A program made the translations under genes and the position numbers. Below, one piece after another: positions 15,960-56,230 of a stretch of DNA of 64,000 bases. The stretch is from Anaerolineae bacterium. GTDB taxonomy: Bacteria; Chloroflexota; Anaerolineae; B4-G1; DUEL01. Position 1 is the stretch's first letter. Each line of letters opens with the position of its first letter. The notes under the pieces were generated by a model. It was not told the origin of the DNA and made no database searches. It saw only the letters and a list, made by a program, of their open reading frames with translations. Where the stretch lies: assembly GCA_025060135.1 (NCBI GenBank), contig JANXCY010000001.1:77226-141225 (forward strand), written 5' to 3'.

Positions 15960-17501
15960 TCAATGGGCCTGCCGGATGAGTTCCTGTTTCAGGTTCCACA
16001 GTTTTTCGGTCAGGGAGACATGATAGACATGGGGGTTGATGAGCCGTTTGACCCCAGCGTCCAGCCGCTCCATGTCCGCCTGACGGAGGCGACGGATTTC
16101 CTCTATAGGAGGGAATTCGTAGAGCAGGCGGCCTTCCTGGAGCACGTCCACCAGGAGCGGCTCCACTTCGGAGATGTCCTGCTGGGTCAGGACCCGGAAG
16201 GCAGTGTGGTCGGTAGGGTGGCGCAGGACGACACGCTCCATCTGCCGGGGGTCTTCATCTTGGAGGCTCAGCAGGTCGGCGGTGGCCTTCCCGCGCCGGT
16301 CGTAGAGCCGCCAGACCCGCTTGTCGCCGGGGTTGAGGGTCTTCTCGGGCGTCTCCGAGATTTTGATGGCGGGCACCCACTCTCCACCATCCCGCACGGC
16401 CACCAGTTTGTAGACACCATCCAAGGCCGGCGCGCCTTCAGAGGTGATGAGCCGGGTCCCCACGCCGTAGACCAGCCGGTTGATGAGCCGGTCCGGGTCC
16501 ACGCCGTAACGGGGCGCCTCTTTCTGAATCTGGGTAAGGATTTCCCAGATGACCAGTTCGTCCAGTTGGTTGGAGAGGACAATGACTGTATCTGGGAACC
16601 CGGCCTCGTCCAACATCCGGGCGGCCTGGATGCTCAGGTAGGCCAGGTCGCCGGAATCCAGCCGGATGCCGACAGGTTCATGCCCTTTGCGGCGCAGTTC
16701 CTCAAAGACGCGGATGGCGTTGGGAACGCCGCTCTCCAGAGTATTGATGGTATCCACCAAGAGCAGGCAGTCGTCCGGGTAGACTTCGGCGTAGGCCCGG
16801 AAGGCGCCCAATTCCCCCTCACCCAGAGCCATAAAAATCTGTACCATGCTGTGGGCATGGGTGCCTTTGGGAGGATAACCCAGGAGGTGGGAAAGGCCCA
16901 CGTTGGAGGAGAAATTGGCGCCGCCGATGAGGGCCGCCCGAGCGCCTGCGAGGGCGGCCCTCTCCTGAGCCCGCCGCAGGCCAAATTCCAGAAGGGTCCG
17001 CCCGCGCCCGATTTCGTGGATGCGCGCGGCTTTGGTAGCGATGAGCGTCGGGTAGTTCAGGTGGTTGAGGAGCGGCGTCTCCAGAATCTGGGCCATGGCC
17101 AGCGGTCCCCGCACCACCACCAGGGGGACGTTGGGGTGGACCACCCGTCCCTCCGGAATGGCCTGCATGGAGATGGCGCCGAAGTGCCCGTGCTCCCGCA
17201 GCCAGTCCAGAAAATCATCTCCGAAAAGACGGCGCCCCGTCCGCCCGACCTGGCTTCGCAGGTAGGCCAGGTCTTCCTCCCGAAACCGGGCCTCCTGCAT
17301 CCAGTCTACCAGCCACTCCAGACCGGCGTTGATGCAGTAGCCCGCCCGATGGGAGCCATAGTTAGGGTAACTGCGGAAGAAGTAGTCAAACTGTGCCCAC
17401 TTCTCGTGGAGACCCATCCGGTAATAGAGTTGGGCCATCGTCAGTTGATACTGGTCAGTGTAGAGGATGCCCTCGGCAATCGCTCGGTCGGACGGCTTCA
17501 T
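15960..17501 (-). CDS. pncB: Nicotinate phosphoribosyltransferase
   Basis: This 513-residue enzyme makes nicotinate mononucleotide from nicotinate and PRPP, the entry step of the NAD salvage pathway. Family marks are [18 protein letters not shown] at the start, [20 protein letters not shown], the active-site histidine region [22 protein letters not shown], and [13 protein letters not shown] for phosphate binding. The length fits the long bacterial NAPRT group. The ATG overlaps the kptA stop (ATGA at 17498-17501), so pncB is translated after kptA in one transcript. No other NAD gene is near. Confidence 0.92.
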
Positions 17502-18070
17502 TCCTCCTCCGGAAATTCCAGAAACTCCGGTGGTATGGCTTTCGCCAGGTAGGTAGACTCGTCGGCCCGATGGAAGAGGATACCCGCCTCAGCAGCCTCT
17601 CGGGCGCGGACGATGAGGACCACTGGGTGGGGAGCGTGGCGGGCGCCGACCCGTGCGGCCGCCTCCCGGTCGGTGGAGAGGTGAACGTACTGGCGGCGCA
17701 TAGGGCGGAGCCCCTCTTTCCGGATGCGGTTCAGGGCGTGGGGGGAGGTGCCGTGATACAGACGGGGTGGGGGCAGGCAAGGCGAAAAGGCGGCGCACAG
17801 GGGAATGGTGTGCCCGTAGCGGGCACGAATGCGCTCTCCGACCACCTCAAACCGCCGTTTCTCGTCCCCGCTCCCTTTCTCCACCAGTTCCATCACGTCG
17901 GCACGGGTGGCCCAGCGGAAGTTGGGCAATCCCTGGAGGATTTCCAGGACTTCCGGCAGCGATGCCCATCCCTCCTCGTCCAGCCTCAACCCGAAGCGCT
18001 CTGGCTGGTGCCGAAGGATGAGGGAAAGGAATTTGCTCAGTTTGACGATGCGGGCCGATGCTGGAGACAT
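17498..18070 (-). CDS. kptA: RNA 2'-phosphotransferase (Tpt1/KptA)
   Basis: The 190-residue enzyme removes an RNA 2'-phosphate by moving it to NAD+, releasing nicotinamide and ADP-ribose 1''-2''-cyclic phosphate. The conserved tetrad regions are present: [14 protein letters not shown] (Arg, His) in the N-terminal winged helix, [18 protein letters not shown] (His/Thr/Ser), then [10 protein letters not shown] with the final Arg. The start at 18070 follows GGAGGGG. Longer upstream frames cross the promoter. It overlaps pncB by four bases, a link between an NAD-consuming RNA enzyme and NAD salvage. The natural RNA substrate in bacteria is not known. Confidence 0.93.
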
Positions 18071-18091
18071 GGTATGCCCCTCCGGACCCGC

Positions 18092-18119
18092 ATGATAACA
18101 CGGAACGAGGGGAAGGCAA
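18092..18119 (-). promoter_or_regulatory. Promoter of kptA-pncB
   Basis: Leftward TTGCCT (complement of 18114-18119), a 16-bp spacer, then TATCAT (complement of 18092-18097). Transcription would begin near 18085, about 15 bases before the kptA ATG and just ahead of its GGAGG. Confidence 0.65.
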
Positions 18120-18272
18120 GAAGACGCCCTGCCCCGAGATGATGCCATCGCGCCTGGCAGGGGAGCGACCCAGTTGCCCATTGGGACACTTTCTGGTAAG
18201 ATACAAATATGATACCGCCTGGCCCATTTTCCATCGGGTATCTAACCCTTCCTCGGCGTAAGGAGCGCACCC

Positions 18273-18668
18273 ATGAAAGTCCTTTCCTTTTATTCTGATC
18301 TCTGCGTGGGCTGCCATATCTGCGAGGAGGTCTGCGCGGAGACCTGGTTCAAGACCCCGGACCCGGCCAAATCCAGCATGGTGATTCGGGATGAGGGCAC
18401 TGGTCCTCTTCAGGCCACGTTCTGTATCCAGTGCGGTGAGTGTATCGCTGTCTGTCCCACGCAGGCCCTGTATCGGGATAAACAGGGCATCGTCCGGCTG
18501 CGTAAACAATGGTGCGTGGGGTGTCTTTCGTGTGTGGGGTTCTGTCCCTACCTGGCGATGTTCTATCACCCCGACCTGTTGGAGCCGTTTAAGTGTGTGG
18601 CCTGTGGACAGTGTGTAAAGGCGTGCCCGGCCGACGCGCTGGCGCTGGCGGAGACGCCCACGCCGTAA
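18273..18668 (+). CDS. Polyferredoxin with four [4Fe-4S] binding motifs
   Basis: The 131-residue protein has four cysteine clusters in order: CVGCHICEEVC, CIQCGECIAVCP, CVGCLSCVGFCP and CVACGQCVKACP. Each is of the CxxCxxCxxxC type and they should pair to hold four [4Fe-4S] clusters. It resembles the electron-transfer subunits next to aldehyde:ferredoxin oxidoreductases or molybdoenzymes (HycB/CooF-like), but no catalytic subunit is adjacent. A TAAGGAGCG motif precedes the ATG. The soluble protein would pass electrons between unknown partners in the cytosol. Confidence 0.85.
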   Translation: MKVLSFYSDLCVGCHICEEVCAETWFKTPDPAKSSMVIRDEGTGPLQATFCIQCGECIAVCPTQALYRDKQGIVRLRKQWCVGCLSCVGFCPYLAMFYHPDLLEPFKCVACGQCVKACPADALALAETPTP

Positions 18669-55768: not shown

Positions 55769-56230
55769 ATGGGCGGTGGAGTTGGCATAGAGGAACTGCT
55801 GCAGCGCATGGAATCTGGTCGGGAAGCCCTCACCGCCCGGATGCGCGCGGCGCTGGAGGAACACGCCTTCACTAACCGCGCGCTCTTCCCGCCCCGGCAA
55901 CTGGCGGAATTCGCGCGGCAGGAGGCGGAATCCTTTCTGTCCTTCCTGCGCGACCCGGATGAAGCGATGGCCCGGGAGCGGGGCCGGAGCCTGGCCCGGC
56001 AGGGGCTGAGCCATCGGTCAGTCCTGGCTCTGACCCAGGCCCTGCAGGAAGTGGGCTGGGAAAGCGCCAACCCCGAGGTGGAACTCTGGCCCCCTTTCCA
56101 GCAGACCATTGGCCATTACGTCCGCGCACTCTTGGAAGGGTATATGGCCGCCCGGGAGGAAAGCATCCTGGAGCAGCAGGAAAAGACCCGCCAGGCGCTT
56201 CTGCGGGCCCTCCAGCAGCGGAGCGAATAA
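55769..56230 (+). CDS. Stand-alone RsbRD-N-like helical domain
   Basis: The 153-residue all-helical protein matches the N-terminal 150 residues of the giant kinase downstream in order: HAFTNRALFPPRQLAEFARQ aligns with ATLFTNRVTIRPAHLGQMAR, and LLEGYMAAREESILEQQEKT with FLEGYLEAREAMILEEQEGL. The pattern fits the RsbRD N-terminal (globin-like) sensor family known from stressosome proteins and kinases. It has no output domain. It starts 11 bases after the methyltransferase gene and is followed by a strong hairpin. It may form mixed dimers with the kinase. Confidence 0.7.
   Translation: MGGGVGIEELLQRMESGREALTARMRAALEEHAFTNRALFPPRQLAEFARQEAESFLSFLRDPDEAMARERGRSLARQGLSHRSVLALTQALQEVGWESANPEVELWPPFQQTIGHYVRALLEGYMAAREESILEQQEKTRQALLRALQQRSE

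Follow-up and report, generated by a model that had tools for sequence, protein, structure and literature searches.

Enzymes of the Tpt1/KptA family are widespread in bacteria, and their presence there has been described as a longstanding conundrum (PMC6333775). We analysed a kptA gene that overlaps pncB, the gene for nicotinate phosphoribosyltransferase, in a window of 64,000 nucleotides (contig JANXCY010000001.1) from an Anaerolineae bacterium. Both genes are located on the minus strand, kptA (17498-18070, 190 amino acids, ATG at 18070) being assigned to the RNA 2'-phosphotransferases by Pfam and solved-structure matches, and pncB (15960-17501, 513 amino acids) to the nicotinate phosphoribosyltransferases by Pfam, NCBIfam and solved-structure matches. 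The KptA protein of the window resembles the described enzymes in its full-length PF01885 domain (124.6 bits, cut-off 26, profile positions 2-176 of 177) and its intact active-site tetrad, and its nearest solved structures are Tpt1/KptA enzymes (phmmer, E = 2.6e-37). It differs from them in that its gene belongs to clusters for the biosynthesis or salvage of nicotinamide adenine dinucleotide (NAD). This placement hints at what a puzzling bacterial enzyme, presumed to consume NAD in the removal of phosphates from RNA, is connected to in the cell.

The NrtR operons, for example nrtR-nadABC of mycobacteria (PMC6800001), are similar to the loci described here, since nrtR stands beside pncA, nadE, nadCA and nadB in two families of the order, f1 (the family of the window) and f3, with putative palindromic operators at the NAD genes. 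They differ in that kptA is an added member, that the palindrome is unlike the mycobacterial one and that the genus of the window shows no operator at kptA-pncB. The ArkI/KptA system for the phosphorylation of transfer RNA (tRNA) in thermophiles (PMC9095486) is comparable, since the relatives of Thermoflexus likewise possess a KptA whose active site is intact. However, no ArkI writer was identified here, and the available part of that paper does not mention an NAD-operon context. The NadV-NadM pathway for NAD+ salvage and the ADP-ribose (adenosine diphosphate ribose) systems of phages (PMC9503650) also combine NAD supply genes with neighbouring genes of the ADP-ribose type, but here the pathway is a bacterial PncA-PncB-NadE or de novo pathway and KptA takes the place of NADAR. 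Among the literature matches listed, this was the only KptA paper with NAD terms, and in its available part kptA does not appear in NAD-synthesis operons. We found neither a paper pairing KptA with pncB nor a description of kptA in NAD-synthesis operons, and the novelty of the arrangement is provisional.

Conservation of kptA within NAD gene clusters

The comparison covered 48 genomes of the order, 13 from f1, 11 from f3 and 24 from f2. They are mostly fragmented assemblies, and all evidence presented here is computational and derived from sequence. The nearest relatives of the window genome (G000; 2.29 Mb, 144 contigs, 94.9% complete) in the public collection bear titles naming Thermoflexales (an order within Chloroflexota), Thermoflexus (a thermophile), Anaerolineae or Chloroflexi, and all are metagenome-assembled genomes. 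A named chromosome not recognised among the 48 genomes, CP070630 (locus L042), was also considered. Gene families within the clusters were assigned from profile or structure matches of one or two representatives per family and otherwise by BLAST likeness.

We detected kptA in 35 of the 48 genomes and pncB (TIGR01513, E <= 0.001) in 24, with 22 of the latter matches above the cut-off. The two genes adjoin in 10 of the 13 f1 genomes (G000, G101, G045, G264, G265, G266, G009, G259, G262 and G263). The preliminary description had named adjacency in this genome only as the outcome that would speak against its proposal; such an accident is ruled out by these ten genomes, and the pairing is more than chance. 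A four-base overlap is present in eight of the ten pairs, while gaps of 68 and 66 bases separate the genes in G009 and G259, respectively. The overlap with pncB is retained even in G262, where KptA is reduced to its N-terminal lobe (L099 7028-7324), and G264 retains just the terminal part of kptA, at a contig edge beside pncB. CP070630 shows the order nadB remnant (residues 256-528 only), kptA, pncB, with a kptA/pncB overlap of 14 bases. The two genes lie on separate contigs in G077; no pncB match was obtained in G261, and neither gene was found in G260. Outside f1, kptA and pncB are on different contigs in G251, G252, G198, G268, G278 and G279, and both are at contig edges in G249. All six genomes compared within the genus, the window genome and five congeners, keep the two genes side by side. 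None of the 13 other genes called around the pair in the window has a counterpart at E <= 1e-10 and >40% identity in the flanks of these five congeners, which have 3' flank genes in common, so that only the flanks of the pair in the window differ.

The pair is part of a wider pattern. The genes pncA-like, nadE, kptA and pncB follow each other on a single strand in G009, G259 and G263, and G249 shows nrtR, pncA, nadE and kptA up to the contig end. The cluster of G262 consists of nrtR, pncA, nadE, an SPFH gene, a gene for an NAD-kinase-like protein (NADK), the N-terminal half of kptA, and pncB. In f3, the order is nrtR-nadE-nadCA-nadB-kptA (G250, G251) or nrtR-pncA-nadCA-nadB-kptA (G252, with a nadB/kptA overlap of four bases), and G254 has nadE-x-nadC-nadA-nadB-SPFH-NADK-x-kptA. 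Altogether, kptA is found in an NAD cluster in 15 of the 18 kptA-bearing f1 and f3 genomes, if the G264 fragment is counted. The cluster is split in the genus of the window, and in G000 pncA-nadE is located at G000:C59, with kptA-pncB elsewhere. From gene order, kptA is thus a standing member of the NAD clusters of f1 and f3, of which the window holds a two-gene piece. The connection of KptA with NAD metabolism, previously proposed for pncB, is supported and turns out to be broader than claimed, since kptA travels with pncB, nadE, nadB and pncA in the relatives. This conserved home narrows the search for the role of KptA to pathway partners and to relatives that have retained kptA, lost it or reduced it to half.

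Two further arrangements were noticed within these clusters. The succession of an SPFH (band 7) gene and the NAD-kinase-like gene recurs at L099 5065-7031 (G262), L109 5131-7103 (G254) and L207 6702-8702 (G260). The latter protein has no Pfam match, weak NCBIfam matches and a phmmer match to NAD kinase 2 (E = 1.5e-10), and because of the weak family matches we call it NADK-like only. Moreover, nadC and nadA are fused to one gene of 629 amino acids at L108 10109-11998 (Pfam), and BLAST indicates similar long genes elsewhere in f1 and f3.

The KptA phylogeny agrees with this distribution. The tree of 51 rows was obtained by a quick search with midpoint rooting, was supported only by the Shimodaira-Hasegawa-like approximate likelihood-ratio test (SH-aLRT) and included 22 of the 29 full-length rows of the order. 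It groups 21 rows of the order with CP070630 (22 rows, SH-aLRT 98), apart from the row of G198. Within this group, an f1/f3 type (16 rows including CP070630, SH-aLRT 90) is distinguished from an f2 type (6 rows, SH-aLRT 100). The NAD context is present in 14 of the 16 rows of the f1/f3 type and needs three changes on the tree, versus an average of 12.5 with shuffled labels.

NrtR (NrtR_WHD) was identified in 20 of the 48 genomes, in 12 of 13 in f1, 8 of 11 in f3 and none of 24 in f2. The palindrome TTNGTGT-N7-ACACNAA occurs upstream of nrtR, pncA and nadE and might represent the operator of this regulator. Genome-wide, we counted 20 exact sites in 11 of the 48 genomes, 19 of them in f1 and f3 (versus two for the reversed control pattern) and one in f2 (versus five). 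Seventeen of these 19 sites precede pncA, nadE, nrtR or a nucleotidyltransferase-like gene by at most 100 bases, those in L203 and L176 being the exceptions. An exact box precedes the kptA-bearing units of G009, G249, G254 and G262 (half kptA), 18-64 nucleotides upstream of pncA or nadE, and a box with one mismatch is found at the kptA units of G259 and G251. The stretches scanned around kptA in G250, G252 and G263 contained no exact box.

Active site of KptA and a candidate NAD salvage route

The tetrad R20-H21-R73-R126 of the KptA protein of the window aligns with R18, H19, R68 and R121 of CthTpt1, for which the roles of the catalytic Arg-His-Arg-Arg tetrad and of the RNA-contacting residues have been described (PMC6333775). 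It is kept in all 16 full-length rows of an alignment of 15 f1/f3 genomes and CP070630, which leaves out the distant KptA of G198. The RNA-contact residues of CthTpt1 are also retained (S12 in 15, K13 in 16, K71 in 15 and Y85 in 16 of the 16 rows). The active-site tetrad is intact, and we infer that the enzyme is catalytically active. In CthTpt1, the residue corresponding to H21 makes contact solely with the 3'-phosphate adjacent to the 2'-phosphate (PMC6333775), and its conservation therefore favours an RNA-like substrate over NAD phosphate (NADP). The NCBIfam KptA equivalogs NF002012-NF002015 gave at best 177.1 bits, below the cut-off of 231; these models appear to describe subtypes narrower than the KptA family. 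The assignment of PncB is supported by TIGR01513 (469.8 bits, cut-off 297.4) and NF006695 (620.8 bits, cut-off 469), and its nearest solved structure is a nicotinate phosphoribosyltransferase (E = 2.4e-100).

A tRNA substrate is weakly indicated by the neighbours of kptA in f2. In three of the five neighbourhoods viewed in this family, those of the three g6 genomes G267, G209 and G268, the full-length kptA stands beside a PP-loop gene of the tRNA thiolase type (L136 7214-8517, L134 7740-9038 and L112 4707-5994), and the two genes overlap in two of these three. The best solved-structure match of the one PP-loop protein compared was the tRNA thiolase TtuA.

The absence of a nicotinamidase, which the preliminary description had regarded as a gap in the salvage loop, is set aside as an objection, because G000 possesses a good candidate. 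A pncA-like gene lies together with nadE at G000:C59, outside the window, and an isochorismatase-family gene of this kind is present in 11 of the 13 f1 genomes. The proposed look for pncA near the pair in relatives was also rewarded, since the three sister genomes G009, G259 and G263 carry the gene upstream of kptA, with nadE in between. The G000 protein matches PF00857 (61.2 bits, cut-off 27), and several nicotinamidases of solved structure are among the matches of the G009 protein. In the L097 protein, the positions D, K, C and D-x-H...H align with those of the nicotinamidase of P. horikoshii (1ilw/1im5). We take Asp-Lys-Cys to be the catalytic triad and Asp/His/His to be the metal site; these positions do not vary across 35 aligned called proteins, among them the G000 copy and repeats of the same genomes. 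On the basis of these residues and of weak matches, the gene likely codes for a nicotinamidase. As the proteins of two relatives miss the curated cut-off while the triad and metal positions are kept, we call it PncA-like. NadA was not found in G000, although it is present in 7 of the 13 f1 genomes, and G000 may therefore depend on salvage.

Taken together, an active RNA 2'-phosphate eraser that consumes NAD might be co-expressed with the enzymes that rebuild NAD from its nicotinamide by-product, an explanation to which we assign an even chance. KptA would spend NAD+ during removal of the 2'-phosphate from RNA and set nicotinamide free, which the PncA-like protein would deamidate. PncB would then form nicotinate mononucleotide, and after adenylylation the last intermediate would be amidated back to NAD+ by NadE. 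Joint expression, as suggested by the overlap in the window and by operon-like clusters in the relatives, some of them behind the putative NrtR operator, would couple the NAD spender to the supply. If this coupling is functional, the NAD turnover caused by RNA 2'-phosphate removal would be big enough to merit regulation. The ADP-ribose product could be processed by the macro-domain and 2H-family proteins of G000, which are found in 24 and 36 of the 48 genomes, respectively.

Several observations weigh against this explanation. The linkage is not complete, since no NAD gene is seen beside kptA in G077 (where the contig ends upstream of the gene), G261 (nrtR-nadE-nadCA-nadB up to the contig edge, kptA elsewhere) and G198, whose kptA belongs to a distant, different KptA lineage and stands elsewhere in the genome. 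G260 keeps nadE-nadCA-nadB-SPFH-NADK without kptA, and no kptA was found in G255 (nrtR-pncA-nadE) and G256 (nrtR-nadE-x-nadCA-nadB, with nadB at a contig edge). Furthermore, only the N-terminal lobe of KptA is kept within the G262 cluster. The PncA-like proteins of the two relatives scanned do not reach the NCBIfam nicotinamidase cut-off (L100: 23.4 versus 174 bits; L097: no family), and the best solved match of the G000 protein is an isochorismatase hydrolase, with the nicotinamidase 1ilw in third place (E = 2.4e-5). On the RNA side, the PP-loop gene is absent in the f2 neighbourhoods of G276 and G278 (L135, L137). A PF01163 scan of G000 for an ArkI kinase gave only a weak match inside a frame of 769 amino acids, the search itself being a weak one. 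The macro domain is absent in G263 and weak in G009, and there is no 2H match in G009. With regard to regulation, no operator with up to two mismatches was detected at 17900-18400 of the window, upstream of kptA, and the exact operator occurs in none of the seven genomes of the genus. Control of the window pair by NrtR is hence not supported. Finally, an NAD consumer under the control of NAD synthesis is not obviously good homeostasis.

The link also does not seem to extend to bacteria in general. We examined a control set of 80 kptA loci, eight of them from f1/f3; the other 72 were not de-duplicated, and 24 have a flank of about 1.5 kb. Within these 72 loci, no NAD gene was found beside kptA by tblastn with Chloroflexota queries, apart from two Nudix/NrtR-like matches, one in L052 (34%) and the other, an NrtR-like gene, in L076 at a distance of 5.5 kb; some links may have been missed where flanks are short or the NAD genes divergent. 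In six windows of 16 kb from other families of the class no NAD gene was named, and gene calling missed kptA in two of them. We therefore set aside a general bacterial link between kptA and NAD, and it looks clade-limited.

Alternative explanations

It is possible, though on the unlikely side, that there is co-regulation without recycling. In that case, kptA would belong to the NAD regulon since NAD+ is a substrate of its enzyme, or an inherited linkage would have been kept by the operon, with a negligible output of nicotinamide. The KptA tree fits a single gain at the base of f1 and f3 with later losses, and the half kptA of G262 still overlaps pncB by ATGA, as if the overlap mattered for pncB. 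In addition, growth of E. coli is unaffected by the loss of KptA (PMC6333775). However, kptA keeps an NAD partner while the partner itself switches between nadB, nadE and pncB, and the pair of the window has remained together in a neighbourhood unlike that of the five congeners. This argues against passive linkage, which would be expected to break.

We regard it as doubtful that KptA has a dedicated role in the NAD homeostasis of the Thermoflexus relatives and their sister family, such that 2'-phosphorylated RNA (or NADP) gives rise to ADP-ribose derivatives acting on NrtR, so that the RNA repair load would set NAD synthesis. If this were true, KptA would gain a physiological role in bacteria, in which RNA damage is tied to cofactor supply. 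A related idea, which we consider improbable, is a signalling role, in which the ADP-ribose derivatives formed by KptA from 2'-phosphorylated RNA, once processed, would detach the repressor NrtR, so that a need for RNA repair increases NAD synthesis. All 20 genomes with NrtR belong to f1 and f3, the two families with NAD-linked kptA, exact putative operators stand before the kptA-bearing units of the four genomes named above, and G000 possesses the macro-domain and 2H-family genes. Moreover, ADP-ribose at 50 mM frees NrtR from DNA in M. smegmatis (PMC6800001). On the other hand, KptA yields a cyclic phosphate of ADP-ribose and not ADP-ribose itself, NrtR is also present without kptA in G255, G256 and G260, and the window pair has no box in its vicinity.

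We likewise give little credence to a 2'-phosphorylated NAD metabolite as the substrate, above all NADP (with the same 2'-phosphate on adenosine), whose pool KptA would adjust: a half kptA lies beside the NAD-kinase-like gene in G262, such a gene is followed at the second position by a full kptA in G254, and the RNA site of the CthTpt1 crystal held the pAp of coenzyme A, which left a non-RNA substrate open while the authors preferred RNA (PMC6333775), but the histidine conserved in 16 of 16 rows contacts a 3'-phosphate that NADP lacks, one NAD would be spent per NAD made, and kptA has the tRNA-thiolase-like neighbour in three of the five f2 neighbourhoods viewed.

Features of the window and RNA-related genes

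As reported in the preliminary description, the stop codon of kptA and the start codon of pncB share the four bases ATGA (17498-17501, minus strand). A likely ribosome-binding site of pncB, GGAGGAGG, lies within the end of kptA at 17503-17510 (minus strand), and a GGAGGAG counterpart is present in five congeners; kptA itself is probably served by GGAGGGG at 18077-18083 (minus strand). With regard to the single promoter that had been proposed for the pair, a sigma-70-like element (TTGCCT-16-TATCAT, 18092-18119, minus strand) is indeed located upstream of kptA, albeit as a weak match (9/12) whose promoter function is putative, and three such matches occur in the region around kptA versus 1.2 expected from shuffling. 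By eye, a promoter-like element is also visible upstream of kptA in G101, G045, G265 and G266, and it is absent in G077. The overlap and this element suggest that kptA and pncB are transcribed together. The pair is flanked upstream of kptA by a divergent gene for a 4Fe-4S protein and past pncB by a gene of the phosphodiester-glycosidase family on the same strand.

An RNA ligase, whose presence nearby had been suggested as a check, was not found beside kptA; RtcB was the sole ligase family searched, and it lies at G000:C73, not near kptA. RtcB is present in 41 of the 48 genomes. In G045 (L126 5172-10818), genes for archease, RtcB and UPF0047 are located upstream of pncA-nadE on the same strand, with one lipoprotein-like gene between them. 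Similarly, in G265 (L129 2485-8999) RtcB and a UPF0047-like gene precede pncA-nadE on the same strand, with two genes in between. In the window genome, RtcB and pncA-nadE are on different contigs.

Some minor observations concern these RNA-related genes. A long in-frame insertion, probably an intein, interrupts RtcB in G101:C210, G264:C432, G265:C389, G266:C209 and G267:C61 (frame of about 1000 amino acids, break near model position 50). In five g9 genomes of f2 (L110, L111, L131, L132 and L133), only the N-terminal (RNA) lobe of KptA of about 100 amino acids is present, and its first catalytic Arg is changed to Tyr or Val. The ratio of nonsynonymous to synonymous substitution rates (dN/dS) is 0.12-0.21 in those pairs that differ in protein sequence, and this half-KptA therefore looks selected. 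A PP-loop-like gene overlaps the half-kptA in four of the five g9 genomes, confirmed by Pfam in L110 only. Strong matches to RIO1 kinases were obtained in two of the bacterial genomes, at G254:C115:2833-3297 (E = 2e-37) and G275:C91:4596-5021 (E = 5e-35). Within the window, ARAGORN called a possibly false tRNA-Ala at 55960-56047 with the anticodon AGC, which is unusual for a bacterium.

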